A DNA stretch of 64,000 nucleotides. Origin: Imbricaverruca yamaguchii. Taxonomy: Eukaryota > Arthropoda > Thecostraca > Neoverrucidae. Shown here in pieces: positions 11,201 to 50,900 of the stretch. Positions within the stretch are counted from its first letter, which is position 1; the number at the start of each line of letters is the position of its first letter. The DNA lies in assembly GCA_034440575.1 (NCBI GenBank), contig JAOTOL010001074.1:147501-211500 (forward strand), given 5' to 3'. Below the pieces are notes generated by a model, which searched no databases, had not been told where the DNA came from, and saw only the letters and a program-made list of their open reading frames with translations. The position numbers and the translations under genes are program-made.

Positions 11201-11758
11201 TGGAGGTCACTGGGGCTGGGCTGGCCAGTCAAGGTACTGACACCTGGCCAGTCAAGGTACTGACACCTGGCCAGTCACGGTACTGAGACTGACACCTGGC
11301 CAGTCACGGTACTGACGCCGGCCGGCTGTGGAGGTCACTGGGGATGGGCTGGCCAGTCACGGTACTGACACTGGGTCACTGGGCACCTGGCCAGTCACGG
11401 TACTGACGCCGTGCCGGCTGTGGAGGTCACTGGGGCTGGGCTGGCCAGTCACGGTACTGACACCTGGCCAGTCAAGGTACTGACACCTGGCCAGTCACGG
11501 TACTGACGCCGTGCCGGCTGTGGAGGACACTGGGGCTGGGCTGGCCAGTCAAGGTACTGACACCTGGCCAGTCACGGTACTGACGCCGTGCCGGCTGTGG
11601 AGGTCACTGGGGCTGGGCTGGCCAGTCAAGGTACTGACACCTGGCCAGTCACGGTACTGACGCCGTGCCGGCTGTGGAGGTCACTGGGGATGGGCTGGCC
11701 AGTCAAGGTACTGACGCCGTGCCGGCCGTGGAGGTCACTGGGGCTGGGCTGGCCAGTC
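2299..11758. repeat. 9.4-kb donor-containing minisatellite filling most of an IRE1 intron
   Basis: The array begins at the exon's donor (AAG|GTACTG). Two modules alternate: a 23-bp module, ACCTGGCCAGTCACGGTACT+GAC, and a 54-bp module beginning GCCGTGCCGGCTGTGGAGGT and ending in the same GGTACTGAC. Together they often form a 77-bp higher-order unit. The 54-bp module resembles the first 54 bp of the intron itself. Every module ends in CAAGGTACTG or CACGGTACTG, so AAG|GT or ACG|GT donor-like sites recur well over a hundred times. The A form is common near the exon and the C form dominates further in. Short open frames here are repeat translation. Confidence 0.95.
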
Positions 11759-12680
11759 AATGTGGCTGTGGATTTGTAATAGGATTGGATTGGATGGAAG
11801 GTAGATGCTGCATCCCGAACACGGATGTGTCGCAAAGGTCGTTCCCAGAATAATTGTTTTGAGGGACGAATGAAGTGCGGTCGATGGTAACTGGAAAGGG
11901 AGGGAACAAAGCGTCGAACTTGGGCATTTTGTGTTCGATGTTTGTGACAGGATATAAATTTGTGTTCGTCAAGATCCTGGAGCATGCTCCTGGACACTGG
12001 CGTTAATTCTTGTAATATATTTGGGAAGGGGTCTTCAGAAAGCTACGCTTAGTGACCAACATTGGAAACGTGAGCAAGCAACTCTGTTCTAGTCTGCTCT
12101 GCTTTGCATCGGTGGCGGCAACACATCTTCGTTGGTGTGCAGAATACAGATGGTGTCAGGAGTAGGGAAGTCGTTTTTTTCTTTCTTTGTGGTGTCCTGT
12201 AATTAAAAGATTGATTAAGAAAATAATACCTGATAGTTTTTTTTTAACCTTCCTCACACTGTTTTGACTTCCTAAATTGACGTCAAAGAGGCATGACTGC
12301 ATGTAGCTGCATTAGTGCATTGTATTTTTACAATGCCACAAATATGAATACTGCCAGAAGAAATTATTATGATGAATTGTGTTGCTAAAATCAACAATAA
12401 CCTGAAAGTCGTGATATTGGACACATGGCTGATTTTAGCCTGGGGGGGGGTGATCTTATTGTCCGGCACGCCTAGAAAAAATCATTCCCCCTGCTAACAT
12501 CGGCCGTCTGTCCAATATTACCACTTCTAGGTGTACTACTGTTGCCATGTTTCGACTCGATGGTTTGGCTTTACATGGGTTCGCGTCCCCGACCACCAGT
12601 GTCGGTGTCAGTGTCAGAGTGACCGCCAGTGTCAGTGTCGGACCGCCGATACACTGACGCCCCTGCTGCCTGGTCGGCAG
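11759..12680. other. Unique 3' part of the IRE1 intron
   Basis: Non-repetitive intron sequence between the array and the last recognised IRE1 exon. I see no additional exon or recognisable element. The final stretch before the acceptor, 12,590-12,640, has a short GTGTCAGTGTCAG/GACCGCCAGTG simple repeat. Confidence 0.6.
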
Positions 12681-12866
12681 CGGAACCACTACCGGGAGCT
12701 GCCGGACGAGGCTCGCGCCGCGCTCGGACCCATCCCCGACCAGTTCGTGCACTACTGGACCAGCCGGTTCGGCCGGCTGCTGGTGCACGTGTGGTCGGCC
12801 GCACAGCACGTGCGTCACGAGCCCATCTTCAGCAAGTACTTCCTGGGCGACTACGACTGGACGCTG
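12681..12866 (+). CDS. IRE1 (ERN1) exon: C-terminal half of the KEN RNase domain
   Basis: The acceptor TGGTCGGCAG precedes CGGAACCACTACCGG. It encodes 62 residues in phase 0, starting RNHYRELPDEARAALG and including FVHYWTSRFGRLLVHVW and HEPIFSKYF, a direct match to the C-terminal half of the IRE1 KEN domain. The His in NHYREL is the equivalent of catalytic human H910, so with Tyr and Asn-Lys in the previous exon the RNase looks intact. The likely donor is ACGCTG|GTGGGT; if it is unused, the frame reads on for 24 more residues of repeat-derived sequence to a stop at 12,939. Human IRE1 ends about 15 residues after this point. Confidence 0.9.
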
Positions 12867-12960
12867 GTGGGTGCGGGGCAATGTGGGCAGGTACAGGGTG
12901 ACGCTGGTGGGTGCGGGCCGATGTGGGCAGGTACAGGGTGACGCTGGTGGGTGTAAGGCG
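12867..12960 (+). repeat. Short 40-bp tandem repeat at the IRE1 donor
   Basis: Two full copies and one partial copy of a 40-bp unit starting GTGGGTGCGGGGCAATGTGG and ending GGTGACGCTG. The end of each unit, GACGCTG, repeats the last bases of the preceding exon (GGACGCTG), and the start of each is the donor GTGGGT. It is a small version of the splice-junction arrays seen elsewhere. A looser GGTGATGCTGGTGGG repeat continues to about 13,135. Confidence 0.8.
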
Positions 12961-17827: not shown

Positions 17828-17955
17828 AGCGTCGTCAATCTCTCACGCCGGTTGTCCGTGGGTGGACTCGGTAAACTCCGACGGTTGCGAGATTCGAACC
17901 CACAATCTTGCGACCAAGAGTCCTACGCTCTACCAACTGAGCTACCGCGGACCCC
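17828..17955 (-). mobile_element. tRNA-derived SINE, family B
   Basis: On the minus strand it begins GGGGTCCGCGGTAGCTCAGT with A-box and B-box (GGGTTCGAATCTC) of a Lys/Arg-like tRNA, followed by the same CGTGAGAGATTG core as family A. A second copy lies at 32,963-33,115. Confidence 0.8.
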
Positions 17956-18819: not shown

Positions 18820-19086
18820 TTAGAGTGCGTTGCCACTGCCGTTCGGTACATTTTCGTTCGGTACACCATCGCTGCCGTTCTGTACAATTTCGCTGCCGTT
18901 CGGTACACCATCGCTGCCGTTCGGTACAACTTCGCTGCCGTTCGGTACGTCGCCGCTGCCGGCGAACAGCACCTTCTTCGCGGAGTTAGCACTTGAGGCG
19001 ACACTAGCGCCGTTCGACGGCGGCGAGTCGAAGTAGCACTTGCGGCAGACTGCCATGTACTTGTCCTGACCACCTATGATCTCCAC
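18820..19086 (-). CDS. Thymidine kinase last exon (zinc-binding C-terminus plus repeat tail)
   Basis: The acceptor TCCGCCTCCCCAG is followed by 88 codons and a stop. VEIIGGQDKYMAVCRKCYFD matches the TK1 C-terminal segment, whose CRxC supplies the second pair of zinc-binding cysteines and whose preceding loop closes over the thymidine site. The following tail of about 65 residues is not conserved in TK1. It ends in at least four PNGS-type repeats (GDVPNGSEVVPNGSDGVPNG) encoded by a 21- to 24-bp coding minisatellite. Phase 0 joins exon 4 (ETE|VEIIGG). With the other exons the product is about 239 residues plus a missing N-terminus, similar to vertebrate TK1 length. Confidence 0.93.
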   Translation of the reverse strand: MEIIGGQDKYMAVCRKCYFDSPPSNGASVASSANSAKKVLFAGSGDVPNGSEVVPNGSDGVPNGSEIVQNGSDGVPNENVPNGSGNAL

Positions 19087-20235: not shown

Positions 20236-20617
20236 GCAGTGGTCAGGTACACTAATGCACCTGATGGTGCACTACTGCATCAGGTGCACTACCGCATCAA
20301 GAACACCGGCACACGAGGGTGGCAAGAGGCTGGCCAGATTTCTCATGTTACCATGAACAGTTCACGTTTTCTAAATGTGATCTGTGATCAGATTGATTGA
20401 GAGCGACACACACGTGTATTTGCATGCATGCTTGCATCTTAGCATTGCAGAATGTGCAGCTCTACTTTATCTGCGTTACTTTGGGAGGGATTCGTGGAAG
20501 CCGTTCTCTTGATTTATGACGTATCAGTCAAACCTAATCATCAACGAATTCAAATGACTCCCACTTGAGCTACATGAAATACAACGCATGCAAGCGTACA
20601 CCTTGACACCATCGACA
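20236..20617. other. Unique spacer in TK intron 4
   Basis: Non-repetitive sequence between the 41-bp and 35-bp arrays. No exon or mobile element was recognised. Confidence 0.6.
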
Positions 20618-23390
20618 TATCGTGGCGTAACTCGCTCAGTCTCCACTCCACATATCTGGCGTAACTCGCTCAGTCTCCACTCCACATATCTGGCGTAACT
20701 CGCTCAGTCTCCACTCCACATATCGTGGCGTAACTCGCTCAGTCTCCACTCCACATATCGTGGCGTAACTCGCTCAGTCTCCACTCCACATATCGTGGCG
20801 TAACTCGCTCAGTCTCCACTCCACATATCGTGGCGTAACTCGCTCAGTCTCCACTCCACATATCGTGGCGTAACTCGCTCAGTCTCCACTCCACATATCG
20901 TGGCGTAACTCGCTCAGTCTCCACTCCACATATCGTGGCGTAACTCGCTCAGTCTCCACTCCACATATCGTGGCGTAACTCGCTCAGTCTCCACTCCACA
21001 TATCGTGGCGTAACTCGCTCAGTCTCCACTCCACACATCGTGGCGTAACTCGCTCAGTCTCCACTCCACATATCGTGGCGTAACTCGCTCAGTCTCCACT
21101 CCACATATCGTGGCGTAACTCGCTCAGTCTCCACTCCACATATCGTGGGTAACTCGCTCAGTCTCCACTCCACATATCGTGGCGTAACTCGCTCAGTCTC
21201 CACTCCACATATCGTGGCGTAACTCGCTCAGTCTCCACTCCACATATCGTGGCGTAACTCGCTCAGTCTCCACTCCACATATCGTGGCGTAACTCGCTCA
21301 GTCTCCACTCCACATATCGTGGCGTAACTCGCTCAGTCTCCACTCCACATATCGTGGCGTAACTCGCTCAGTCTCCACTCCACATATCTGGCGTAACTCG
21401 CTCAGTCTCCTCACATCGTGGCGTAACTCGCTCAGTCTCCACTCCACACATCGTTAATGGCGTAACTCGCTCAGTCTCCACTCCACATATCGTGGCGTAA
21501 CTCGCTCAGTCTCCACTCCACACATCGTGGCGTAACTCGCTCAGTCTCCACTCCACATATCGTGGCGTAACTCGCTCAGTCTCCACTCCACACATCGTGG
21601 CGTAACTCGCTCAGTCTCCACTCCACATATCGTGGCGTAACTCGCTCAGTCTCCACTCCACATATCGTGGCGTAACTCGCTCAGTCTCCACTCCACATAT
21701 CGTGGCGTAACTCGCTCAGTCTCCACTCCACATATCGTGGCGTAACTCGCTCAGTCTCCACTCCACATATCGTGGCGTAACTCGCTCAGTCTCCACTCCA
21801 CATATCGTGGCGTAACTCGCTCAGTCTCCACTCCACATATCGTGGCGTAACTCGCTCAGTCTCCACTCCACATATCGTGGCGTAACTCGCTCAGTCTCCA
21901 CTCCACATATCGTGGCGTAACTCGCTCAGTCTCCACTCCACACATCGTGGCGTAACTCGCTCAGTCTCCACTCCACATATCGTGGCGTAACTCGCTCAGT
22001 CTCCACTCCACACATCGTGGCGTAACTCGCTCAGTCTCCACTCCACATATCGTGGCGTAACTCGCTCAGTCTCCACTCCACATATCGTGGCGTAACTCGC
22101 TCAGTCTCCACTCCACATATCGTGGCGTAACTCGCTCAGTCTCCACTCCACATATCGTGGCGTAACTCGCTCAGTCTCCACTCCACATATCGTGGCGTAA
22201 CTCGCTCAGTCTCCACTCCACATATCGTGGCGTAACTCGCTCAGTCTCCACTCCACATATCGTGGCGTAACTCGCTCAGTCTCCACTCCACACATCGTGG
22301 CGTAACTCGCTCAGTCTCCACTCCACATATCGTGGCGTAACTCGCTCAGTCTCCACTCCACATATCGTGGCGTAACTCGCTCAGTCTCCACTCCACATAT
22401 CGTGGCGTAACTCGCTCAGTCTCCACTCCACATATCGTGGCGTAACTCGCTCAGTCTCCACTCCACATATCGTGGCGTAACTCGCTCAGTCTCCACTCCA
22501 CATACCGTGGCGTAACTCGCTCAGTCTCCACTCCACATATCGTGGCGTAACTCGCTCAGTCTCCACTCCACATATCGTGGCGTAACTCGCTCAGTCTCCA
22601 CTCCACATATCGTGGCGTAACTCGCTCAGTCTCCACTCCACATATCGTGGCGTAACTCGCTCAGTCTCCACTCCACATATCGTGGCGTAACTCGCTCCAT
22701 CTGGCGTAACTCGCTCAGTCTCCACTCCACATGGCGTAACTCGGCTATTCGTAACTCGCTCAGTCTCCACTCCACATATCGTGGCGTAACTCGCTCAGTC
22801 TCCACTCCACATATCGTGGCGTAACTCGCTCAGTCTCCACTCCACATACGTGGCGTAACTCGCTCAGTCTCCACTCCACATATCGTGGCGTAACTCGCTC
22901 AGTCTCCACTCCACATATCGTGGCGTAACTCGCTCAGTCTCCACTCCACACATCGTGGCGTAACTCGCTCAGTCTCCACTCCACATATCGTGGCGTAACT
23001 CGCTCAGTCTCCACTCCACATATCGTGGCGTAACTCGCTCAGTCTCCACTCCACATATCGTGGCGTAACTCGCTCAGTCTCCACTCCACATATCGTGGCG
23101 TAACTCGCTCAGTCTCCACTCCACATATCGTGGCGTAACTCGCTCAGTCTCCACTCCACATATCGTGGCGTAACTCGCTCAGTCTCCACTCCACATATCG
23201 TGGCGTAACTCGCTCAGTCTCCACTCCACACATCGTGGCGTAACTCGCTCAGTCTCCACTCCACATATCGTGGCGTAACTCGCTCAGTCTCCACTCCACA
23301 TATCTGGCGTAACTCGCTCAGTCTCCACTCCACACATCGTGGCGTAACTCGCTCAGTCTCCACTCCACATATCTGGCGTAACTCATTTTA
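20618..23390. repeat. 35-bp minisatellite in TK intron 4, donor-less derivative
   Basis: About 79 copies of CGTGGCGTAACTCGCTCAGT followed by CTCCACTCCACATAT, very homogeneous, with occasional CACAT variants and a disturbed patch at 22,690-22,760. It equals the 46-bp unit of the adjacent array minus 11 bp. On the transcribed (minus) strand the missing 11 bp are GTGAGCTGAAG, which is the splice donor. Confidence 0.95.
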
Positions 23391-23764
23391 GCTAACCTCA
23401 GTCTCCACTCTATATGTGGCGGCGTAACTCGCTTTAACTCACCTCAGTCTCCACTCCATATATAGCGGCGTAACTCGTTTTAGCTAACCTTAGTCTCCAC
23501 TCCACATGTGGCGGCGTAACTCGCTTCAGCTCACCTCAGTCTCCACTCCACATGTCGCGGCGTAACTCGCTTCAGCTCACCTCAGTCTCCACTCCACATG
23601 TCGCGGCGTAACTCGCTTCAGCTCACCTCAGTCTCCACTCCACATGTCGCGGCGTAACTCGCTTCAGCTCACCTCAGTCTCCACTCCACATGTCGCGGCG
23701 TAACTCGCTTCAGCTCACCTCAGTCTCCACTCCACATGTGGCGGCGTAACTCGCTTCAGCTCAC
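23391..23764 (-). repeat. 46-bp minisatellite containing the TK exon 4 donor
   Basis: About eight units next to exon 4. On the minus strand each reads GGAGTGGAGACTGAG|GTGAGC, reproducing the last 15 bases of exon 4 and its donor, then TGAAGCGAGTTACGCCGC and a CACATGT spacer. The units furthest from the exon are diverged, and beyond them the array continues as the 35-bp donor-less form. Confidence 0.93.
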
Positions 23765-23884
23765 CTCAGTCTCCACTCCTCTCCGTTTGGTGTAGCTGGC
23801 CGCGCGAAAACACTCCATACAGACGGCGTTCAGCTTCACCACGCTCTCGGCCAACGGCACCAGTCGCAGGATGTCTCCGAACGC
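23765..23884 (-). CDS. Thymidine kinase exon 4 (lasso and first zinc cysteines)
   Basis: Encodes exactly 40 codons in phase 0 between CACGCAG and ACTGAG|GTGAGC. The peptide [20 protein letters not shown] followed by [20 protein letters not shown] is a close match to TK1. [10 protein letters not shown] is a conserved structural motif, CMEC carries the first zinc-cysteine pair, and FRAASYTKR precedes the substrate loop. The donor is at the edge of the 46-bp array. A partial copy of this exon with its acceptor lies just upstream at 23,924-23,989. Confidence 0.95.
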
Positions 23885-24027
23885 CTGCGTGACGCAATAA
23901 TGACGTCACCTCGGGGTACAGCCACAGACGGCGTTCAGCTTCACCACGCTCTCGGCCAACGGCACCAGGCGCAGGATGTCTCCGAACGCCTGCGTTACGC
24001 AATCATGACGTCACATCGGCATACAGT
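23819..24027 (-). repeat. 105-bp tandem duplication copying the 5' part of TK exon 4 and its acceptor
   Basis: 23,819-23,923 and 23,924-24,027 are near-identical. The second copy holds an acceptor (ACGCAG|GCGTTCGGAG) and the first 66 bases of exon 4 (23,924-23,989), then runs into intron-like sequence. It has no donor of its own at the corresponding place, so it is a truncated decoy exon upstream of the true one. Confidence 0.88.
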
Positions 24028-25190
24028 GGTGGTGGTGGATTGGAGTTTAGGGGCGCGTCGACATCAAGGGTCATTTTGCGCCCATAACTGGAATGTAATC
24101 GATCTACGGTGCTGCTATCATAGCTCACTATCATCTTCACGGATGGGGGTATATCACGTCAAAGCGAGCTTGTCGAATGAACATAAAAATATTCCCAGAC
24201 GCTACGGCCTGAGAGTCGTTCCCTATAAGCATACGTAAAGAAAAGTCGGTGTTCAACCGTCCTAAAATCTGGCGTCGTAGAGGTTCTAGCAGTGTACAGC
24301 CAACTAAAACATGGTACACGGTAAGCGGGTTAGAACAGCGCGGACATACGGGACGGTCATTACCGGTCAACATATAACTATGTGTTGCAAAGGTATGGCC
24401 TATTCTCAATCGACAGAGTATTACTTCTTCCCGACGTTTGCTTCGGTGAGAGGATAGCCATTTTCCTAGTGTCGGTTTTAAAACCTTGAGCTTACTACAC
24501 TTTGAATTCCAGGATCGTTGCCATTCTGAATGTATACTTGACAATATAGTAGGGTATATATCTCTTGGAGGGAGCCGTAGATGGACCACACAGCCATTGC
24601 TAATGGCGTGCTTGGCGGTTATGTCAGCAGCTTCGTTTCCGGCGAGTCCAACATGGCTAGGAATCCAGCAAAACACTAAAAATCTTCCCGATGTCATGCA
24701 GGGACTTTACTACTTTGATAATCCTCCGAACAAGTCGGTTATCCTGGTTAAAGATGTTCAGTGCCTGGAGACTGCTCAGAGAGTCTGTGAAAATCACGTA
24801 CTTCGTGGACCGGTCTTTCTGTATAAAATAGAGGGCCTGTAGAATGGCATACAGTTCGGCAGTAAAAATCGAGGTTTGCATCGGTAAACAAAAAGATCGA
24901 ACACTTTGTCGACTTACGTAAGCACACCCGACACCAGAAACTGACTTTGAGCCGTCCGTGTAAATACGCGAAAAGTCGTTATATTCGTGTATTTTTTCCA
25001 ATGCTAGCGTTCGGAGTTCCTCCGGGTTTACCTGCCCTTTCCTTGAGCAGGTTAGTGTCATGCCAGTTTTCACTGGGACATCGGCATACAGCCGCAGGCG
25101 GCTTCGGCAACTACATGGCCTGTCAGAGCACGTGCCCAGTGCACTCACGGCACCGTGGGCGGCAGTGGACGTCACCATCCGCAACGTGTC
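24025..25190 (-). pseudogene. Non-LTR retrotransposon fragment with RNase H domain, in TK intron 3
   Basis: Two minus-strand frames (25,184-24,657 and 24,697-24,137) join across one frameshift near 24,680. The first carries RNase H motifs IYTDGSKS, FTAELYAILQAL and VIFTDSLSSLQAL. The second continues with CWIPSHVGLAGNEAADITAK, giving the D-E-D-D catalytic set. A cysteine motif, CPRCSNPLTVYHVLVGC, typical of I/Jockey-like ORF2 C-termini follows. The reverse transcriptase part is missing (5' truncation). The 3' end has the GGGCGC...GCGCCC hairpin and a CTAAACTCCAATCCACC tail. Confidence 0.85.
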
Positions 25191-25668: not shown

Positions 25669-25758
25669 CTGGCGCTGAAATGTGGCGTCCAGCGCGGCCA
25701 CCACCACGATCTTTCCCAGGTTGGCCATCTCCTCGGCGAACGGCACACAGTCGGGAAA
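25669..25758 (-). CDS. Thymidine kinase exon 3
   Basis: Encodes exactly 30 codons in phase 0 between GCCGGCCAG and CGCCAG|GTGAGT. The peptide FPDCVPFAEEMANLGKIVVV followed by AALDATFQRQ matches the TK1 segment after the DEGQF motif, with the AALDxTFQR strand that contacts thymidine. The acceptor lies only about 20-40 bp from the edge of a large TGT-rich array in intron 2. Confidence 0.95.
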
Positions 25759-28522: not shown

Positions 28523-28652
28523 GAACTGGCCCTCGTCGATGCCGATGACCGAGTAGTGGGAGGCGGCGATGGTGGTGAGGGGTGCCAGGCTGGTGGCGGA
28601 GACGGCCGCCAGCGTCTGCCGGTCGTGGGTGGAGATGTCCGTCTCGTCGTAC
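28523..28652 (-). CDS. Thymidine kinase exon 2 (DEGQF motif)
   Basis: 130 nt: one base completing the Arg codon from exon 1, then 43 codons. The acceptor is GGCGGTACAG and the donor is CAGTTC|GTGAGT. The peptide YDETDISTHDRQTLAAVSAT matches the flexible TK1 segment, and YSVIGIDEGQF contains the Walker B Asp and catalytic Glu (human D97/E98). Joined to exon 3 it reads DEGQF|FPDCV, as in TK1. The frame is unbroken. Confidence 0.95.
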
Positions 28653-29095: not shown

Positions 29096-29239
29096 TCTCG
29101 AAGTGAGGAGGAATGCCGTCAGGGCGCTTTCAGGAATCTCGTTCACCATCGACAAAAGCTAAGACAATGTTATACTGAGCGCAAAATGTCCAAGGCAGTC
29201 GACGCGCACTAAAGCACAAATCCACCACCACCAGTGTTC

Positions 29240-29297
29240 TAATAAAATCGGCAGCCGTTCGGTGTCGAACCGCGGACCTCCGGATCTCAGCTCGGGC
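29240..29297 (-). mobile_element. tRNA-like SINE head at the edge of the 110-bp array
   Basis: The minus strand contains GGCCGGTAGAGCGCCCGAGC then TGAGATCCGGAGGTCCGCGG and TTCGACACC, a plausible tRNA A-box region and an almost perfect B box (GGTTCGACACC). It lies directly downstream of the oldest exon-donor copy. Its GAGCTGAGATCC resembles GAGCTGATCC in TK exon 1, and that short similarity is where the 110-bp repeat units are joined. Confidence 0.7.
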
Positions 29298-32200
29298 GCT
29301 CTACCGGCCACGAGGCGCGCTCTCACCGTGTGTCGTTGGCGTACTTGATGATCAGGCAGCGGTGGTTGGAGACCTGGTAGCGCTTCAGCCGGCGGATCAG
29401 CTCGGACGCTCTACCGGCCAGGAGGCGCGCTCCCCGGTGGGGGGGAAAAAGGGGGTTGGCCGGCGCGCGGCTCCGCTCACCCCGGGCGCGCCTCACCGTG
29501 TGTCGTTGGCGTCTTTGATGGCGCGGTGGTGGAGACCTGTCTGCCGGCGGTCGCTCGACGCTCCCCGCCGTGTGTCGTTGGCGTACTTGATGATCAGGCA
29601 GCGGTGGTTGGAGACCTGGTAGCTTAGGCGGATCAGCTCGGACGCTCTACCGGCCACGAGGCGCGCTCTCACCGTGTGTCGTTGGCGTACTTGATGATCG
29701 GCAGCGGTGGTTGGAGACCTGGTAGCGCTTCAGCCGGCGGATCAGCTCGGACGCTCTACCGGCCAGGAGGCGCGCGCTCACCGTGTGTCGTTGGCGTACT
29801 TGTGATCAGGCAGCGGTGTTGGAACCTGGAGCGCTTCAGCCGGCGGATCAGCTCGGACGCTCTACCGGCCGGAGGCGCGCTCTCACCGTGTGTCGTTGGC
29901 GTACTTGATGATCAGGCAGCGGTGGTTGGAGACCTGGTAGCGCTTCGCCGGCGGATCAGCTCGGACGCTCTACCGGCCACGGCGCCTCCCTGTGTTGGCG
30001 TCTGACGATCGGAGCGGTGGTTGGAGACCTGGTAGCGCTTCGCCGGCGGATCAGCTCGGACGCTCTACCGGCCGGAGGCGCGCTCTCACCGTGTGTGTTG
30101 GCGTACTTGTGATCAGGCAGCGGTGGTTGGAGACCTGGTAGCGCTTCAGCCGGCGGATCAGCTCGGACGCTCTACCGGCCAGAGGGCGCGCTCACCGTGT
30201 GTCGTTGGCGTACTTGATGATCAGGCAGCGGTGGTTGGAGACCTGGTGCGCTTCAGCCGGCGGATCAGCTCGGACGCTCTACCGGCCAGAGGCGCGCTCT
30301 CACCGTGTGTCGTTGGCGTACTTGATGATCAGGCAGCGGTGGTTGGAGACCTGGTAGCGCTTCAGCCGGCGGATCGCTCGGACGCTCTACGGCCAGAGGC
30401 GGCCTCACCGTGTGTCGTTGGCGTACTTGACGATCAGGCAGCGGTGGTTGGAGACCTGGTAGCGCTTCAGCCGGCGGATCAGCTCGGAGTCTACCGGCCA
30501 GGAGGCGCTCACCGGTGTCGTTGGCGTACTTGATGATCAGGCAGCGGTGGTTGGAGACCTGGTAGCGCTTCAGCCGGCGGATCAGCTCGGACGCTCTACC
30601 GGCCAGGAGGCGCGCTCTCACCGTGTGTCGTTGGCGTACTTGATGATCAGGCAGCGGTGGTTGGAGACCTGGTAGCGCTTCAGCCGGCGGATCAGCTCGG
30701 ACGCTCTACCGGCCAGGAGGCGCGCTCTCACCGTGTGTCGTTGGCGTACTTGACGATCAGGCAGCGGTGGTTGGAGACCTGGTAGCGCTTCAGCCGGCGG
30801 ATGTCAGCTCGGACGCTCTACCGGCCAGGAGGCGCGTCTCACCGTGTGTCGTTGGCGTACTTGATGATCAGGCAGCGGTGGTTGGAGACCTGGTAGCGCT
30901 TCAGCCGGCGGATCAGCTCGGACGCTCTACCGGCCACGAGGCGCGCTCTCACCGTGTGTCGTTGGCGTACTTGATGATCAGGCAGCGGTGGTTGGAGACC
31001 TGGTAGCGCTTCAGCCGGCGGATCAGCTCGGACGCTCTACCGGCCAGGAGGCGCGCTACCGTGTGTCGTTGGCGTACTTGATGATCAGGAGCGGTGGTTG
31101 GAGACCTGGTAGCGCTTCAGCCGGCGGATCAGCTCGGACGCTCTACCGGCCAGGAGGCGCGTTCACCGTGTGTCGTTGGCGTACTTGATGATCAGGCAGC
31201 GGTGGTTGGAGACCTGGTAGCGCTTCAGCCGGCGGATCAGCTCGGACGCTCTACCGGCCAGGAGGCGCGTCTCACCGTGTGTCGTTGGCGTACTTGATGA
31301 TCAGGCAGCGGTGGTTGGAGACCTGGTAGCGCTTCAGCCGGCGGATCAGCTCGGACGCTCTACCGGCCAGGAGGCGCGCTCTCACCGTGTGTCGTTGGCG
31401 TACTTGATGATCAGGCAGCGGTGGTTGGAGACCTGGTAGCGCTTCAGCCGGCGGATCAGCTCGGACGCTCTACCGGCCAGGAGGCGCGCTCTCACCGTGT
31501 GTCGTTGGCGTACTTGATGATCAGGCAGCGGTGGTTGGAGACCTGGTAGCGCTTCAGCCGGCGGATCAGCTCGGACGCTCTACCGGCCAGGAGGCGCGCT
31601 CTCACCGTGTGTCGTTGGCGTACTTGATGATCAGGCAGCGGTGGTTGGAGACCTGGTAGCGCTTCAGCCGGCGGATCAGCTCGGACGCTCTACCGGCCAG
31701 GAGGCGCGCTCTCACCGTGTGTCGTTGGCGTACTTGATGATCAGGCAGCGGTGGTTGGAGACCTGGTAGCGCTTCAGCCGGCGGATCAGCTCGGACGCTC
31801 TACCGGCCAGGAGGCGCGCTCTCACCGTGTGTCGTTGGCGTACTTGATGATCAGGCAGCGGTGGTTGGAGACCTGGTAGCGCTTCAGCCGGCGGATCAGC
31901 TCGGACGCTCTACCGGCCAGGAGGCGCGCTCTCACCGTGTGTCGTTGGCGTACTTGATGATCAGGCAGCGGTGGTTGGAGACCTGGTAGCGCTTCAGCCG
32001 GCGGATCAGCTCGGACGCTCTACCGGCCAGGAGGCGCGCTCTCACCGTGTGTCGTTGGCGTACTTGATGATCAGGCAGCGGTGGTTGGAGACCTGGTAGC
32101 GCTTCAGCCGGCGGATCAGCTCGGACGCTCTACCGGCCAGGAGGCGCGCTCTCACCGTGTGTCGTTGGCGTACTTGATGATCAGGCAGCGGTGGTTGGAG

Positions 32201-32815
32201 ACCTGGTAGCGCTTCAGCCGGCGGATCAGCTCGGACGCTCTACCGGCCAGGAGGCGCGCTCTCACCGTGTGTCGTTGGCGTACTTGATGATCAGGCAGCG
32301 GTGGTTGGAGACCTGGTAGCGCTTCAGCCGGCGGATCAGCTCGGACGCTCTACCGGCCAGGAGGCGCGCTCTCACCGTGTGTCGTTGGCGTACTTGATGA
32401 TCAGGCAGCGGTGGTTGGAGACCTGGTAGCGCTTCAGCCGGCGGATCAGCTCGGACGCTCTACCGGCCAGGAGGCGCGCTCTCACCGTGTGTCGTTGGCG
32501 TACTTGATGATCAGGCAGCGGTGGTTGGAGACCTGGTAGCGCTTCAGCCGGCGGATCAGCTCGGACGCTCTACCGGCCAGGAGGCGCGCTCTCACCGTGT
32601 GTCGTTGGCGTACTTGATGATCAGGCAGCGGTGGTTGGAGACCTGGTAGCGCTTCAGCCGGCGGATCAGCTCGGACGCTCTACCGGCCAGGAGGCGCGCT
32701 CTCACCGTGTGTCGTTGGCGTACTTGATGATCAGGCAGCGGTGGTTGGAGACCTGGTAGCGCTTCAGCCGGCGGATCAGCTCGGACGCTCTACCGGCCAG
32801 GAGGCGCGCTCTCAC
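29298..32815 (-). repeat. 110-bp exon-donor minisatellite in TK intron 1
   Basis: About 32 tandem units. Read on the minus strand, each unit is the last 77 bases of TK exon 1 (encoding ELIRRLKRYQVSNHRCLIIK and YANDTR), the donor ACACG|GTGAGA, and 33 bases of intron ending CCGGTAGAGCGTCC, then the next exon copy. Units from about 30,850 to the functional exon are almost identical at exactly 110 bp. Those at 29,300-30,500 carry many deletions and changes. Reading through any donor meets TGA at once (ACA CGG TGA), so only the first donor gives a functional protein. Confidence 0.96.
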
Positions 32816-32928
32816 CGTGTGTCGTTGGCGTACTTGATGATCAGGCAGCGGTGGTTGGAGACCTGGTAGCGCTTCAGCCGGCGGATCAGCTCCGTGGTCT
32901 TGCCGCTGAACATGGGCCCGAAAATCAC
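32816..32928 (-). CDS. Thymidine kinase exon 1 as visible (P-loop)
   Basis: 113 nt giving 37 codons plus two bases, starting after TGTGCGACAG. VIFGPMFSGKTTELIRRLKR carries the Walker A P-loop (GPMFSGKTT) that binds the ATP phosphates in TK1-type thymidine kinases, the cytosolic salvage enzymes that make dTMP. LIIKYANDTR continues the TK1 match. In vertebrates about 20 residues precede VILGPMF; no start-codon exon for them was recognised upstream, so the N-terminus is missing from this annotation. The donor is the first of about 32 tandem copies. Confidence 0.95.
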
Positions 32929-32962: not shown

Positions 32963-33115
32963 GGGGGCCGCGGTGGCTCAGTAGGTAGAGCGTCGGGTCC
33001 TTGATCGCAAGATCGTGTGCTCGAATCTCACAACCGACGGTGTTACAGAGTTCACACGTGACTAATCGGCGTGAGAAGTTGGCGACGTTACATGACCTAG
33101 CGGTTGAATGCGTCG
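32963..33115 (+). mobile_element. tRNA-derived SINE, family B
   Basis: Begins GGGGGCCGCGGTGGCTCAGT, has a B-box-like GTGCTCGAATCTC, then the shared core CGGCGTGAGAAGTTGGCGAC and GCGTCGTAAA. It lies 35 bp upstream (transcribed direction) of the TK exon 1 acceptor, antisense to TK. Same family as 17,828-17,955. Confidence 0.8.
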
Positions 33116-33450
33116 TAAAAGAGCCGAAGGTTATTCTTCCAAACATCGTGTGGCTGACTGAAGAATTTTCACTGGAGGAGACGAGCAAGGTCGGAAAAAT
33201 AGGCTGATCATAGATGTTTATCAATTAGAACATCATTGTCTCATTTTTCCAATTTGGATGTTGGCTGCCGTTGTTTGTCAATTAACTGGTCTGTGATAAA
33301 GTATTCAAGACACATGGGAAAGTGTAAACTGAGATTTTGGTCCCAGGGTTTTGAATGAAATATCCTCTCCATATTTGATTACCTACGAATTTCCCTGTCC
33401 ACATTCAGAATTACACAGTGCAAGTCCAATCCCGTTAGGGGGGGGGGGAT
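33116..33450. other. No gene recognised
   Basis: AT-moderate sequence with a G-tract at 33,439-33,448. A first coding exon for TK was looked for on the minus strand and not found. Confidence 0.5.
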
Positions 33451-36860: not shown

Positions 36861-37886
36861 GTCCATGAATGTACATTTCAGATTTCGTGGGATCTTGGGG
36901 CCCCCAGTGCCACTTCCCGCGGCACATACGTAGTTTTTTGCACCCAATGTTGGTCTTGGGGCCAGGCGTCTTCTTTGTGTGTGGGGAGGGGGTGGCAGGG
37001 TGTTTTTAGGGAGCCTAGCATATCTTTTCGAAGCCAACGCGATCTTCCTCAATGCTACCCTCTTCGGTACGACACTGTGCCAGAATCCCTTCAAATATCA
37101 GACATACAGAGCCAGCAACGGCGTGAGATGGGGAGGCGGATCCCCAAATGTCGGGCAATTTAAAATTACGTCCATGGGATCGCATGAAAACATAATTGTC
37201 CCTCCCCCGATCAAGAAAGTGTTCCAAATCCAGAAATCCGGAAATCGTCAAGTCATGGTCCCCAGCCGCGATTCCCCAAGCACACGAACTCAGACGAGTG
37301 CGGAAAGCCATGGAAATGGCAAATCCCAAACGGTGAATTATCTGCCAATTATCTTGGTAACTACATTCACTTGCCGAAACCGAAGGCGAAAATTACTGAG
37401 TGGGCTTCATGATGTGGGAACGTCGGAGCGCAGAGGAAACTGTATTATTTAAAGAATTTATGCTATCACATGGCAATATGGCTGCAGAATTCGGCTCAGT
37501 TGTGACGAACGTGCGGCGATTACACTACGTTATAGTGTTAGGTGGTCGGTAACTACGCACTTTCACTGCGTTGGAAGAGCCGTCAGTGGTGAGGGAGGTT
37601 GTTTTGTGCGTGTAAAGGGTCTTGGTTTTGTGTTATTTTTGGTGTACAATGTATTGAGACACCATATGTTCGCCTGTCATTGATTGACTCAAATGTAAAA
37701 TTAGTGAGTGCTAGAAGTCTGGTTGTATACGAAGTACTGCTCCAATGAGGACAAGCCTTGCCACATACTAAAATTACTAATGTGTTGGCGTAATTGCCAT
37801 CCTGACATTACATTCTAACTAAGTGGGCAGGCCAAGCATATCATGAAGTGCAAGTTGGTAAACAAATGACAAAAAATTGAATTGGG
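36861..37886 (+). promoter_or_regulatory. Upstream region of ANKRD27 (promoter inferred)
   Basis: The last kilobase before the ANKRD27 start codon has no other gene. A 157-codon frame at 36,979-37,452 has no recognisable domain. The start codon context at 37,884 is GGGATGG. No TATA box or initiator could be assigned with confidence. Calling it a promoter region is inference from position only. Confidence 0.35.
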
Positions 37887-40457
37887 ATGGCCCAGTCAGC
37901 AGGTGCATGCCACTATGATGAGGATGTGGCTGAAAATCCATTCTTCAAGGACCTATGTGCTCGGTTTCCAGATGCCTATACAAAAGCTGTTTGTGATGGA
38001 TGGCTGATATGCATTCCACGATCACGCAGTTACAAAGTCTGTGACCTAACTGAAGATGACATGCTTTCACATATTCTTGTGCCAGAACCTGATGACCCAA
38101 GTTCATTTCACACCATAACAAATAAGCATGTTAAGAAGAAGAATGATTCATTTATCCTGCAAGGACAAAAGGGGCCAGAAAGAAGTGTGCATATATTGTT
38201 CTCAGAAACATGCTACTCTGAGGATCTCCACAAGCACACAATCTGTTGTCTGGAAGGTCCACTCTGCTCGTCTGGCAGTCCATACCAACAGATCCACAAT
38301 AACCTGCAGCCATTAACAGGGATGCATGACTGTCTCAGTCTTCTTTGGACAGCTGGAAATGGTCACCATGCTATAAATGCTGTCAACAAATGCTGTGGCT
38401 TGTTTGTGGAGAACAACAGAAACTTGAGTAATGTGGGCCTGCAAGATCTGTGGGAAAAGGTTGACCACCTGTACCAAAAGGCCCTGAGGCTGTTCTGTGA
38501 GAAGGGTGGCATCGAGGACTGGTTTCGGGAGGACCAGATATTCGCAGACTCTGTACGTCTGGCCCTGGAGACATACATGCTGTACCTGCTGTACCAGAGC
38601 CTGATGGAAGGCCTGCTGACCGCCACTGCTCCTGACGATGCCAAACTAAACAAGATCATCCAGAATCTGCAGGACCTGCAGCCAGAAGACATCGGCATTC
38701 GACCCCAGTTCTGGCCTCACCTGGCTGCTGCGCGTCAGCAGATGCTGAAGCTGCCCCGCCAGCACCACCCACTCGGCAAGTATTTGGCTCTGCGGCGGGT
38801 GGCACGCCAATTCGACACAGCCGACACAGTGCTCTCGTCAGACGACCTGCTGCCCATCTACATCCAGCTGGTGGTGCACACGCCAATCGCCAGCTGGACG
38901 GCACAGCTGACCATGCTGCGTCGCTTTCACTTCTCGGCCAGCTCGACCAACCTCAGCGAGTACGGCTTCCTGGTGGCGACGCTGGAGGCGGCGCTGGAGC
39001 ACGTGCGGTCTGGCGCGCTGCAGCCGGCCGCCGAGCCGCCTGACCCGCCGGACGGCGCGGCGCGTGACGGCGAGACGCCCAGCGGCGGCGGCGAGCAGAC
39101 GGTCGTGGCGCGGCTGTTCGCCGCAGTCGCGCGCGACGACGTGGCGGAGGTGGAGGCGCTGCTGGACGCCGGCACGCCGCCGCCGCCGCCGCTCGCCACG
39201 CTCTGCCACCCGCTGTGCACGTGCATGGCCTGCGCGCGCACCCGCACTGCGCTCGCCTCGGCGGCGGCGAGCGCGTCCAGCCTGGACAGCGCTGGCCGGT
39301 CGGCACTGCACGTGGCGGCGGCGCATAGCGCCGTGCGCTGCCTGGAGGCGCTGGTGGCGCGCGGCGCGCCTCTGGACAGCCGCGACGCTGCCGGCCTGAC
39401 GCCGCTGCACTGCGCCGTGGCGCGAGGCCAGCAGGGCGCCGCGCTGCTGCTGCTGCACCTGGGCGCGTCGGCCGGCCGCCGCTGCCGGCGCGGCAACACG
39501 GCGCTGCACACGGCCGCAAACTGTGCGCACGTGGCGTGCGTCAAGGCGCTGCTCTACCACGCCGAGCAGACGGGCGAGCCGGCCGGCGTGGGCGCCGTCA
39601 ACCAGGACGGCGACACGCCGCTCCACCTGGCCGCCCGCTGGGGCTTCGGCCGCATCGTCCAGCTGCTGGCCGCGCACGGCGCGCAGCCAGACGTGCTCAA
39701 CCGGCACCGGCAGACGCCGGCCGACGCCGCGCACGACCACCGGGTGCGCGACGACCTGCTGCTCGCCTGCGAGCTGCACCGGCGGCTGGCGCCGCGCGCG
39801 CTGGTGCGGCTGCGCGCGCCGCCGCCGCCGCCGCCGCAGGCGCCGGCGCCACCCACGGCAGGCGGCCGCGCCACGCGCCGCCTCTTCTCGGCCATCGCCG
39901 CCGGCGACGAGCGGCTGGCCTGCTTCCACCTGGGCCTGAGCGCCGTGGCCGACGGCGCCGAGCCGCTGTGCCACCCGCTGTGCACGTGCGCGCGCTGCGC
40001 GCCGCTGGCGGCGCAGCGCAGCCCGGCGCCGGTGTCGGTGTCGGCGCGCGACCCGGCCGGCCGCTGCGCGCTACACGCGGCGGCCGCTGCGCGCCTGCTC
40101 GACCTGATGCGGCTGCTGCTGGTGTGCGGCGCCGACGTGAATGCGCTGGCCGCCGACGGCAGCACGCCGCTGCACGTGGCGTGCGCCGCAGACTGGGCGG
40201 CCGGCGTGGCCGAGCTGCTGGCGCACGGCGCCGACCTGTGCTGCGCAGACCGCGCCGGACACACCGCCCTGCACGTGGCCTGCGCCAGACGCAGCGCCGA
40301 GCTGTGCCGCCGCCTGCTGCGCGCCGGCGCCGACCCGACCGCCCGCTGCGCCAGAGGACTCACGCCGCTGGAGAGCGCCGGCACCGACCGGCACGCGCTC
40401 GCCAAGGTGTTCGCCGAGGTGGTCGGACAGGGGGTCAGCCCGGCCGGCCACGTGTGA
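37887..40457 (+). CDS. ANKRD27/VARP: VPS9-domain ankyrin-repeat protein, single exon
   Basis: Uninterrupted 856-codon frame. The N-terminus (DEDVAENPFFKDL) resembles VARP. Residues about 225-375 are a VPS9 Rab-GEF domain (LQDLQPEDIGIRPQF, SDDLLPIYIQLVVHTPI, EYGFLVATLEAALEHV), the module that activates Rab21-type GTPases. CHPLCTCMAC (about 440) and CHPLCTCARC (about 695) are the two Cys-rich zinc motifs that in VARP bind retromer VPS29. Each is followed by an ankyrin block (about 470-610 and 710-830), which in VARP bind Rab32/38 and flank the VAMP7-binding segment. Here the linker between blocks is short and proline-rich, so VAMP7 binding may be reduced. Vertebrate VARP is about 1,050 residues and multi-exonic; this copy is shorter and intronless. 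Codon GC rises sharply after about residue 370. No frameshift or internal stop, so it looks functional. Confidence 0.96.
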   Translation: MAQSAGACHYDEDVAENPFFKDLCARFPDAYTKAVCDGWLICIPRSRSYKVCDLTEDDMLSHILVPEPDDPSSFHTITNKHVKKKNDSFILQGQKGPERSVHILFSETCYSEDLHKHTICCLEGPLCSSGSPYQQIHNNLQPLTGMHDCLSLLWTAGNGHHAINAVNKCCGLFVENNRNLSNVGLQDLWEKVDHLYQKALRLFCEKGGIEDWFREDQIFADSVRLALETYMLYLLYQSLMEGLLTATAPDDAKLNKIIQNLQDLQPEDIGIRPQFWPHLAAARQQMLKLPRQHHPLGKYLALRRVARQFDTADTVLSSDDLLPIYIQLVVHTPIASWTAQLTMLRRFHFSASSTNLSEYGFLVATLEAALEHVRSGALQPAAEPPDPPDGAARDGETPSGGGEQTVVARLFAAVARDDVAEVEALLDAGTPPPPPLATLCHPLCTCMACARTRTALASAAASASSLDSAGRSALHVAAAHSAVRCLEALVARGAPLDSRDAAGLTPLHCAVARGQQGAALLLLHLGASAGRRCRRGNTALHTAANCAHVACVKALLYHAEQTGEPAGVGAVNQDGDTPLHLAARWGFGRIVQLLAAHGAQPDVLNRHRQTPADAAHDHRVRDDLLLACELHRRLAPRALVRLRAPPPPPPQAPAPPTAGGRATRRLFSAIAAGDERLACFHLGLSAVADGAEPLCHPLCTCARCAPLAAQRSPAPVSVSARDPAGRCALHAAAAARLLDLMRLLLVCGADVNALAADGSTPLHVACAADWAAGVAELLAHGADLCCADRAGHTALHVACARRSAELCRRLLRAGADPTARCARGLTPLESAGTDRHALAKVFAEVVGQGVSPAGHV

Positions 40458-44699: not shown

Positions 44700-47055
44700 T
44701 TTTGTCCGATAGATGAGCACTGCCCGCTCATCATCCGCACTGTCCGTGGCTCCGAGATAACGCTGAGCTCACGTCAGCCATGGAGGAGCGTGACGCAGCG
44801 ATAAGAGAGTGGGAGACATCCAGAACACCGGAAGCACGACAGACAATCCGAGCCCGCCGCGAGTTCCTGTGTGGTGGCCTGCTCACTGACCGACGGGAGT
44901 TTTGGCGCCGTTTGAAAGAGTTTGCATTCCGACCGACAGAGGGACCCATCGACAGTGTTGGTGATGTGCTAGCCCGTGCAGACAAGTTCACTTCACACTT
45001 TGCAGAGGCGGGCTCACGCACAGTGGCGGAGGTGGTGTGCGACGGTAGCCCCGCGCCCGGTCCCCGACCGCCCAGTGTGAGCGTCGACGCCAGGGCTGCA
45101 CCCGCCACTCTCCCTGAGCTCCAGTGTTAAAATAATGGTTTTCTGTTGGATGTGGGATGTCCAAATGAGTGCAGCAGGATGTCCAAATTCGCCATGGAAA
45201 CAATGTTGTTTAACATAACTTCTAAGTTCATCAAGCACAAGCTTGATCCAACAGCGTACTCATACCTGGAACTTTTTCCTTCGACTTGAGATACCCAACA
45301 TAGGGGTAACTATCTTATCGATAAGGTCGCAAAATACCGATAATTATTAACTGGTATTGTATAACCACACCATAGGTGATCCTTCTACCTGGAATTGTGC
45401 TCAGAGATGTTCGTGCATCATAAACCGTCATGATGAGAATAAGCATGATACTTTTTAAAAAAAACAATGTACTTTTCTATATGAGATGAGGATTTCATGA
45501 AGACTCATCACGAAGCACGATGTCGATACTTCGTTGGAAGGGATGTCGATTCAGTGTAAAGTGGTATATTCCACTCTATTTCATGAAAAATGTATCACTG
45601 ATGAGCTCTCTAAGGCGATAGGGCGAATGAGTACATTCAGAGCAATCGGGGTCGACGATGTCCCTCTCCACGCCATCAAAAAAAATATACTTCGCTGTCA
45701 TCGGCCAACATCCGCTCCATCTCATCAACTGCTCTACTACTACGCAGACCCTCCCCACTGCATGGAAAGTCTCCCGTGTCACGCCCATTTTGAAGTCAGG
45801 CGATCGATCTGATCTCAACAATTTTAGACCAATATCAATTCTGCCAATATTCATCAAATTCAAGGAAAAGGTAGTTTACATGCAATTGGTGCCAAACCTA
45901 CATAACAAACATGTACTCTCGCCTTTACAGTAGGCCTACCGGCCACACCACTGTACGGAGGACGCCATGCTCCATGCTGTCGAATGGATTCCACAGATGG
46001 TTGACAAGGGCCACGTCGCGTCGCTAACAACGATAGACCTCAGCAAAGCCTTCGACATCGTTGAGCATGGTGTCATTGCCAAGCTCGGCTGGTATGGCGT
46101 GCAGTCGATTGAATGGTTCCGCAATTTCCTCAGCAACCGGAAACAGACGGTGAACGGAGGCTCCTCCACCCTTCCCCGGACTCACGGCGTGGCTCAAGGC
46201 TCCATCATCTGGCCAATCCTCTTTCTCGTCTTCATCAACGACCTGTCATCTTTCGTCCCCCATGGTCGCCTATTATCCTATGCCGACGGTACCCAGCTGC
46301 CAGATCATCATCTGCCCAACATCACCGGCCGATACAGCCTTATGGCACGGGCTAAGGTGTCCATATCTCATCTTCAAAATTGGATTCAGCCCAACAGTTT
46401 AAGGATGAAACCGGACAAAACTCAATTCACCCTCTTTGGCACCAATGGGTCATTAAAGAAGCAGTGAACTTCCAGATTCGAGTCTCCGACCAGCAGCTTA
46501 ACTGGTATTCTCACAAATCCATGGTTGTGTGCAAATAGAACGCCATCACAGCATCCCTATACAAATTTCGCAGTCATTTAGCCACGGATGTCCTCAAGCT
46601 TGGTCCGGATCCACGTTTTTTTCTCACATCCTGTATTGTCTATTCCTCTGGGGCGGAGCCGCTCAGTGCCGTCTGCACCGCTTGCAAAAATGCAAAAACT
46701 CTGCCGCGCAAAGTGAAGTTGACGTTGACTAGTCACCGGTGTGCGCCGCACATTAGGATGACTGAAGTTTGCAGAGATGGTTCGGGAGCACGATTTCGTT
46801 CGGGCACACGGAGTCATGTGTACTGAACAATGCCCGGAAGCTGTTCTTAATATGCTTACCTGGCGGTCACAAGTATCGCAGAGGGAGACCAGAGCTGGGT
46901 CAGTTGGCGAGCCTCATCTCACAAGATGTCGACTCACGCAGACCCAGCGAGGTTTTTCATACCGCGCCGCGGACGCTTGGAACAGGCCACCACCATGGGC
47001 GCTGTATGACCAACGTAGTCGATGCGCCCGAAAGCCCAAATAACCAACCAACAGG
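44700..47055 (+). pseudogene. Broken non-LTR retrotransposon (reverse transcriptase), split by a MITE
   Basis: Plus-strand pieces of an ORF2. 44,780-45,120 (ARREFLCGGLLTDRREFWRR) resembles the endonuclease-RT linker. After the MITE at 45,122-45,600 the frame resumes with DELSKAIGRMSTFRAIGVDD, then SRVTPILKSGDRSDLNNFRP, TTIDLSKAFDIVEHGVIAKL, THGVAQGSIIWPILFLVFIN and LLSYADGTQL. 46,777-47,043 ends GFSYRAADAWNRPPPWALYD, a typical ORF2 C-terminus. Several frameshifts and stops break it, and the catalytic YADD reads YADG, so it is dead. The 3' end has the GGGCGC...GCGCCC hairpin and an AAATAACCAACCAAC tail. Confidence 0.85.
45122..45600 (+). mobile_element. hAT-like MITE, copy 5, nested in the LINE
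   Basis: 479 bp from CAGTGTTAAAATAATGG to AAAAATGTATCACTG, with flanks CTGAGCTC and ATGAGCTC (seven of eight identical). It interrupts the LINE frame between the linker and the reverse transcriptase, so it inserted after the LINE. Confidence 0.9.
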
Positions 47056-47967: not shown

Positions 47968-50900
47968 ACCGAGAATCGTCCAAAAACTAATAACTCGCTT
48001 TTGTTTCATGCTACACTGTTCATGATTGTGTTCATATGTTTGCATTGTGCCCAGTAGTAGCGAATCCACGATTTTTATGGGGGAGGAAGCCCCCAAAATG
48101 TTATAAGTATGTTTTCACCATGGCACGAATTTTTAGACTTGTGTGGTACTAATCTCAAAATTTCTTCTTTTCTTCTTCTTGACCTTCTTAGCTACATCTC
48201 TGATGCCCAGCACCAGTTATAACAGGCAACTTCGTCTGTAAGCGAAACCCACCGCTGTTGACAATGATTGGAATGAATGAATGAACGAATGAAAGAACGT
48301 GTGAATAAATACATAAATGCTTCATCACGGACGTCTTCAACATTGCAATACTTGCCTGGCGCAAGGCCTTTTACCCAGCATTGGCCTTGCATGGTTCTCA
48401 AAGACAACCAGTTGGATTTCCATTGAAAACTGGTTAACTTTAGCACTTCATATGGGTAGCTGTGGCCATTGTCAAAGCTCGTCTACCTTCACCTCGCGCA
48501 GATGCAAAATTGTGATGATGTACGTACTACCAAGGTTTGGAAAAGGCAGGAACTGAAATTGAACCTGCATGAACTAATTGGTCTTGCAGCCAGCTTTCGC
48601 AGACTGCAAAAATAACATAACCTCATGGATTTGTTATCTGGACATTATGCCCTGAAAAAATCCTTACATTTTTGTCCTGTAAAGCTAAATAACATTGTTT
48701 GATGACTGCAAATTATGGCATTGTCTGTATGTCATTGATGACATTGCTTGGCCCTATTGCTCTTTGGTTATTATTTTTTAAACGAACTGTAAAGTAGAAG
48801 AGCTTTGATGACCCAAACAGAAATGAGATAATCATGACTGAAGTGGACAACATACTTCTTTTTTAAATACTTGATTTCAAAACTCACCTTGAATGCTTTT
48901 GACTGATTGATTCCTTAGGCTTAAGGGCACACCAACTACACTCATTTGGTGCCCAATATTGAATGCCAGTATGGGACCATGACTGAATTGTGGGTTAATC
49001 AGAATACCCACACCAAATTGATCAAATTTCACCTGTGGGTATTCAGCCCAGGTTTTGTTATGTTCCCATACATCTGGACCCAAAAGGTAATACAAATCAG
49101 TATAATACAAAAATGTATTATTTTGGTGTCATACCTACCTTCTTGAAGAAGGTATCACACTGTATACATAAATATTTGGCATTTTAATCATGTTCCCATC
49201 TCAATGTTAAGAACTAATACAGTTAAACTTTCTTATTTTGGTTCTGAAGACTGATCATGGCATTAAATCAACCATAACATTCCTACCAAAACGTTGGCAT
49301 TCACCTCAAGGTGAATGCCAATTGCTAAGAATAAACATGCAGGGTGAACTCTGCATCATGTATTGTAGATAAAATCAGTAATAAGGGACCTCATGCCATT
49401 AGGGGAAGACCATGAAAATACACAAGAGCGTACATCTTGGTTCACTGCAGTTGTCGGTTATAATCATAAGCATGTGTGTGTAATAACAAAATTGGTGCAA
49501 TATATTTCAGGCCGTAAGCCAAGGCATACCTACCATAAGTTTCATGTCTTGAGTGGTGGATGGAAGGTTGAGATCAAAGAAAAACAGGGGAAACATCACT
49601 CAGCCCAGCAAAAATTTCACAAATGGTTTTATGGTTACCCATTATATACATTAGGTTTATGAAGCATTATCCTCTTAAAGCACAACAGGCTCTGGTAGGC
49701 ATCACGCAGACCAGTCACAAAATCACCACGGCGACCTTGGCTTGACAACTGCAATTAAGAAACAAAGTGACCCACCTGAACTTGTCCGCGCCCAAAGCTT
49801 TTTGACGGTGATTCGATATCATAGTAGGAGGAAATTGCACACGCCATCTTTTGCTGAACTCTGATGAATACCACTGAACCGGATGTCAGTCGTTATCGCA
49901 TATATCGCATGCAACACAGACGTGCGAACGCTGCGCCTTGAATACGATGGAAAAATCATAAACAATTTAAAACAGGAAGAATCTCGCGCCAATCATCTGG
50001 TAGCTGAATCCATGCTGTTCTAGGAATTCCCTTTATTGTCATTTTTTTGTAGCAGCGATGAAGGAAGGAGCTACTTGATACGATACGTTAGTAATTCGTT
50101 GCTTTTCAGGAAACTATCCGTGAATAAGATGGATTTCGGTGACTATTTATCGAGAGAAGCTATCTTACAAAATGTATTTGTCACACTTCTCTTTCAATTT
50201 CTCTACTATTTGTTGCTATCAATTTTCCATCAGACACCACATATACAACAGTCGCGTTGTATATGCTTACATACTAAGTATGCGTGTATTTTTGCTCGGG
50301 ATACGCGGAGGTTGTCGATGGGGAGATCGCGCAGAATGTTAAGTTGCTATGTACGTTGCTCCATAGAAATGCAAATGATTGCATTCTTTTACATAATGTC
50401 ATTGCTAATTACATTGCGGTGCAACTGATTAGTGTTAGCATCGTTTTAAATATATTACATTTTCTCACTGCAATACAAATGAAAGCCAGAATGACATTTT
50501 TGTGTTTATATTCAAATATTCCTTTCATTGCTCTGGTGTCCTTGCCCTGGTCTTCTGGCCCTCCATATTCACTTCACACACATTTGTCCTGATTTCAGGT
50601 CTGCAAAGTACAACTCAGCCCTGAACCTAACCAAACCTAACCTTTTCAGATTAAATAAGAATCAACCAAAAGTAATTTGTTACAAAATTCTTCATGTGTA
50701 GGCACACAAATTAGCTGAACTTTAACATGTCTTCTTCATAAAAATGTATTCTTTAGTCATATCAATATTTTTGTTCATACTTCTATACTGCACATATTTT
50801 TTCCCCATAAGCAAACCTTTTATGTTTTGTATATGTTATATATTTGATGTATTCCATAATTGACCTATGTATGTTTGCTGTATGTTATATAATTTTCAGT

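Follow-up and report, generated by a model that had tools for sequence, protein, structure and literature searches.

A Tandem Array over the Exon 2 Donor of a Barnacle TK Gene and Its Probable Founding Duplication

Introduction

Minisatellites whose units span an exon/intron boundary have been described in amphioxus under the name "mirages," and the mechanism that generates them is called unclear in that account (PMC3087553). Seeding of minisatellites by direct repeats of 5–10 bp is a published model; according to one study, 7 bp is the commonest size of seed repeat in human TE-derived arrays, and two published models cover only 6% of TE-derived arrays (PMC3389668). Squamate reptiles have SINE-derived satellites, tandem repeats formed from portions of elements (PMC10702118), and a potato RdRp gene is reported to have gained an intron when a boundary was duplicated in tandem (PMC4974935).

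The window analyzed here is a 64,000-nucleotide stretch of the genome of the barnacle Imbricaverruca yamaguchii (contig JAOTOL010001074.1, 147501-211500), in which a 34-unit array lies over the donor of TK exon 2. Like the mirage minisatellites of the amphioxus Adh3 and globin genes, its tandem units span the exon–intron boundary (77 exon nucleotides plus donor and intron in each); unlike them, it belongs to a barnacle, has 34 units of 110 bp, and offers a readable founding junction, the very step described as unclear for amphioxus (PMC3087553). Mirages are further characterized by undisturbed regular splicing and by lengths that vary across alleles or cells; the TK array is represented by one assembled copy. 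As in the models of Haber and Louis and of Taylor and Breden, as summarized elsewhere, the duplicated segment lies between direct repeats of 5–10 bp and the last unit is partial (PMC3389668). Unlike in those models, one TK repeat sits in a coding exon and its partner in a tRNA-like sequence, whose box spacing serves as an independent ruler and argues that the match is older than the array. The source SINEs of the squamate satellites are reportedly of the tRNA type, and the TK unit is likewise partly built from tRNA-type sequence; it differs from those satellites in being tRNA-derived in one segment, with a singleton source, and in having exon and donor as its remainder. The TK duplication crosses an intron–exon boundary as in potato RdRp, but no new intron is shown in TK, where by eye each array unit has a donor and none has an acceptor. 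Boundary minisatellites and direct-repeat seeding are already known, and the readable founding junction is the added feature. Among the matches listed, no barnacle case of a boundary minisatellite was found in the open-licence literature, which is weak evidence of absence.

The TK Locus and Its Array

In protein comparison, the closest relatives of this TK are from barnacles (Pollicipes pollicipes, 85%; Amphibalanus amphitrite, 82%), and exons 2–6 form a single reading frame when joined. The 767-Mb genome yields 33 TK protein matches; because all of them sit on the same contig, no second locus is found in this assembly, which may be incomplete. Intron 1 also holds two open frames on the + strand, one of 858 aa with ankyrin and VPS9 domains (37881-40454) and one with a reverse transcriptase domain (RVT_1; 45934-46464).

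Table 1. Coordinates of features in the TK region of the window
Feature	Position	Strand	Basis
TK exon 1	49773-49847	-	
TK exon 2, 113 nt, VIFGPMFSGKTTELIRR...NDTR; its final 77 nt supply the exon portion of unit 1	32816..32928	-	aligned with barnacle TK proteins
Exonic copy of the match GAGCTGA	32886..32892	-	unit-by-unit reading, repeat comparison
34-unit array; 110-bp consensus with 77 nt of exon end and 33 nt of donor/intron	29294..32892	-	unit-by-unit reading; TRF
First donor, GTGAGAGCG, sole donor keeping TK in frame	32807..32815	-	read-through gives ..NDTR, then stop
Intronic copy of the match GAGCTGA	29287..29293	-	unit-by-unit reading, repeat comparison
tRNA-like segment, A box to B box, 45 nt	29261..29305	-	pattern search, spacing; missed by Rfam tRNA model
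Separate dispersed short repeat adjoining the tRNA-like segment	29176..29237	-	similarity matches
TK exon 3	28523-28652	-	
TK exon 4	25669-25758	-	
105-bp duplication (2 copies) spanning the acceptor and start of TK exon 5	23819..24026	-	TRF, junction probe
TK exon 5	23765-23884	-	
TK exon 5 donor array, 46-bp inner and 35-bp outer units	20615..23779	-	TRF
TK exon 6	from 19086	-	

The 110-bp array joining exon end to intron that was reported in the initial annotation is real, and its 34 units are read on the minus strand; its exon had been taken for exon 1 and is in fact exon 2, which the array enters 36 nt from the exon start. The intronic part of the unit includes the donor. TRF calls the array from 29568 to 32892 (periods 220 and 330) or from 29994 to 32892 (period 110), and both edges read cleanly. 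The listed TK proteins of Pollicipes and Amphibalanus, when aligned, contain the corresponding segment once. The consensus unit junction is GGTAGAGCGTCC joined to GAGCTGATCC, and in some left-hand units it is broken. Fifteen of the 34 units are identical to the consensus, including all 14 nearest exon 2. The last unit (29403-29294) reads GGTAGAGCGCCC joined to GAGCTGAGATCCGG...GGTTCGACACC, and a 7-nt partial unit closes the far end.

At the DNA level the term coding-exon minisatellite fits the array, while in translation the stop comes at the very next codon beyond the first donor. This poses a question of donor choice for the cell, with an intact donor core (GGTGAG) in 29 of the 34 units and an open frame from the first donor only. 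Judged from sequence, splicing would take that first donor and remove the array as intron, and because it would do so the TK gene probably still works.

The Probable Founding Match and the tRNA-Like Segment

The letters common to exon 2 and the tRNA-like end of the array are GAGCTGA, as had been noted, followed after a 2-nt offset by GATCCG. The GAGCTGA copies flank the ancestral unit at a distance of 110 bp. Of the direct repeats that exon 2 shares with the first 300 nt of the intron, this one, at 7 bp, is the longest, and it contains the unit junction. A 7-bp repeat is per se ordinary, being present in 54 of 60 shuffles. At greater distance, the intron also shares longer repeats, of 9 and 8 bp, with sequence lying upstream of exon 2. 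At sites 93 and 108 the last unit has G and C, matching the tRNA-like end; most inner units have C and T there.

At its far end the last unit runs on into GGTAGAGCG...GGTTCGACACC. The start-to-start spacing of the A and B boxes, from GGTAGAGC to GGTTCGA, is 34 nt, equal to that of a tRNA-like element at 17934 (-), and it passes unbroken through GAGCTGA, which we take to belong to the anticodon arm (assigned by hand from tRNA geometry). The unbroken spacing argues that the intronic copy is native to the tRNA-like segment and that the unit is the chimaera; the match thus probably predates the array. Across the 767 Mb, a pattern of the two boxes (GGTAGAGCG, 20–30 nt, GGTTCGANNCC) matches 36 times and its reversed control never, and 33 of the 36 have the same total length of 45 nt as the segment at the array end. 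The Rfam tRNA model and ARAGORN did not detect the segment at 29261..29305; despite these misses, we take it as tRNA-derived from its boxes and spacing.

The initial annotation had gone further and called the segment a tRNA-like SINE. Its head is indeed tRNA-like, with an A box and a B box, but searches of the genome by DNA similarity, by a pattern allowing up to 3 mismatches, and by a gapped pattern gave no second, dispersed copy: with ≤3 mismatches, its core is found at the array end and in one array unit only. None of the 25 other distinct 45-nt heads resembles it closely: the best agrees at 11 of 25 variable sites, a value reached in 275 of 2,000 shuffles. No target-site duplication is seen by eye around 29176-29312, where the array overlies the 5′ side. 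We have dropped the name SINE because no second copy turned up; the segment may be what remains of an old SINE, or a solitary tRNA pseudogene.

The adjoining sequence was considered as a SINE tail and rejected. It is a dispersed repeat of its own, with 17 hits (E ≤ 0.01) in 234 kb, and a B box lies upstream in one of the 17, the copy next to the array itself. Further copies of this ~50-bp repeat are at 24023-24084, L034 3176-3221, and L033 4090-4143; three copies have apparent target duplications of ~14 bp (by eye), with GTT- or TGG-rich edges, and the repeat is possibly a very short retroposon. A different tRNA-like dispersed element has two copies, 17955-17786 (-) and 32963-33132 (+), that are 79% alike over 173 columns; the second sits just upstream of TK exon 2.

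Origin of the Array

We propose, with a probability of about 0.7, that the minisatellite over the TK exon 2 donor goes back to a single tandem duplication between two GAGCTGA copies, one in the TELIRR codons of exon 2 and the other a short way into intron 2, inside an old sequence of tRNA origin. The founding duplication suggested in the initial annotation is upheld in this form, between short direct repeats of a coding exon and of tRNA-like intronic sequence, by the position of the junction in the longest short-range repeat, by the 7-nt partial unit that ends the array, and by the tRNA spacing. The second unit would have arisen by replication slippage, microhomology repair, or unequal exchange, and later expansion would have proceeded by slippage or exchange, with the latest growth on the exon side. 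Template switch, slippage, end joining, and unequal exchange are not distinguishable here.

A partial last unit always mimics flanking direct repeats, so the case for the match rests on the tRNA spacing. The first duplication might have been independent of the match, with blunt ends, or the 7-nt overlap might be left over from a later change to the array edge. The inner unit at 30810, GAGCTGACATCC, carries a 2-nt insertion at the place of GA in the tRNA-like end, which suggests that the edge may be reshuffled, and the other boundary arrays that we inspected by eye show little or no clear founding homology, so that arrays here may not need it. Yet the GAGCTGA letters are required by the tRNA spacing, and accidental homology this long is rare: when exon 2 is paired with intron bases 8–140, only eight of the 14,916 possible breakpoints share at least 7 bp, every one from the GAGCTGA repeat. 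We regard a founding event without the match as unlikely. Much less of the array might be real than appears, if it were largely an assembly artefact with a far lower true number of units. A 5-kb run of N lies before the window, and in 31 of the 34 units (the three most broken excluded) the changes are 39 deletions, ten substitutions, and one insertion. Small deletions dominate the left-hand units, and part of their decay may therefore be assembly or consensus error. Against an artefact on the larger scale, substitutions recur among the units and mark unit types (C93G in four, A55G in three, A83C in two), both array edges read cleanly, and other repeats of a similar kind stand nearby; we hold it to be highly improbable.

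It is also conceivable that minisatellites in this genome arise preferentially at splice junctions, the tRNA-like match being incidental to the founding of the array. We placed 27 junctions in TK and in the neighboring IRE1 gene (KEN domain; + strand), the IRE1 exons being located with a human protein query and their edges set by eye; both ends of the first matched IRE1 exon and the x560 acceptor were excluded, and the x224 donor position is uncertain by 2 bp. Boundary-spanning repeats were found at seven of the 27 junctions with a 6+18 probe and at six with a 10+14 probe, and intron sites 60–200 nt from the junctions are repeated in 11–12 of 27. The 10+14 test is, however, also passed by 129 of 400 positions drawn at random from the contig and by six to nine of 27 intron sites 300–1,000 nt away; the corresponding counts are nine of 27 for intron sites at 30 nt and four to five of 27 for exon sites 30–60 nt inside. 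Because random positions are repeated as often as junctions, with no excess at the junctions over the random and intron controls, splice-site targeting is without support and improbable as an account of the TK array. The founding duplication between the GAGCTGA copies remains the preferred reading.

Other Boundary Repeats in TK and IRE1

The six junctions with nearby boundary copies by the 10+14 probe are the TK exon 2 donor, the TK exon 5 acceptor and donor, the IRE1 x73 donor, and the IRE1 x224 and x843 acceptors; the IRE1 x906 donor is the seventh, positive with the 6+18 probe only. By eye, founding matches at these arrays amount to a run of G at the x73 donor, about 0 bp at the TK exon 5 donor, an imperfect match at the exon 5 acceptor duplication, and a 13-bp match, perhaps a remnant, at the x224 acceptor, with none clear at the x906 donor or the x843 acceptor. 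In the TK exon 5 donor array, a donor GT is present in nine inner 46-bp units (GTGAG in seven of them) and in none of the 77 outer 35-bp units.

Tandem repeats called by TRF cover 37% of the window, 3%–54% of nine flanking stretches, and 14% of 80 kb elsewhere, and the arrays may simply be the product of a repeat-rich region where selection lets them stand. As a tentative generalization, which we think somewhat more apt to fail than to hold, boundary minisatellites could be common in barnacle genes of repeat-rich regions (~1/4 of splice junctions), with dozens of identical donors tolerated since splicing would reliably take the donor nearest the acceptor, and with arrays shedding donors over time, as the outer exon 5 units would illustrate. 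If true, they would offer a naturally occurring test of donor choice and of the conversion of exon ends to intron.

Several smaller observations concern the same two genes. The two copies of the 105-bp duplication at TK exon 5 differ by eye at one site in their exon parts and at more in their intron parts. IRE1 has repeats over the x843 acceptor and the x906 donor, and a 9.4-kb array after x843 repeats donors resembling CAAG/GTACTG, yet gives 0 copies in the junction probe test; these IRE1 repeats occupy 1776-2117, 2340-11759, and 12860-12953. The coding part of TK exon 6 contains a 21-bp repeat (18855-18948; PNGSEVV-like) that is absent from the aligned barnacle TK proteins.
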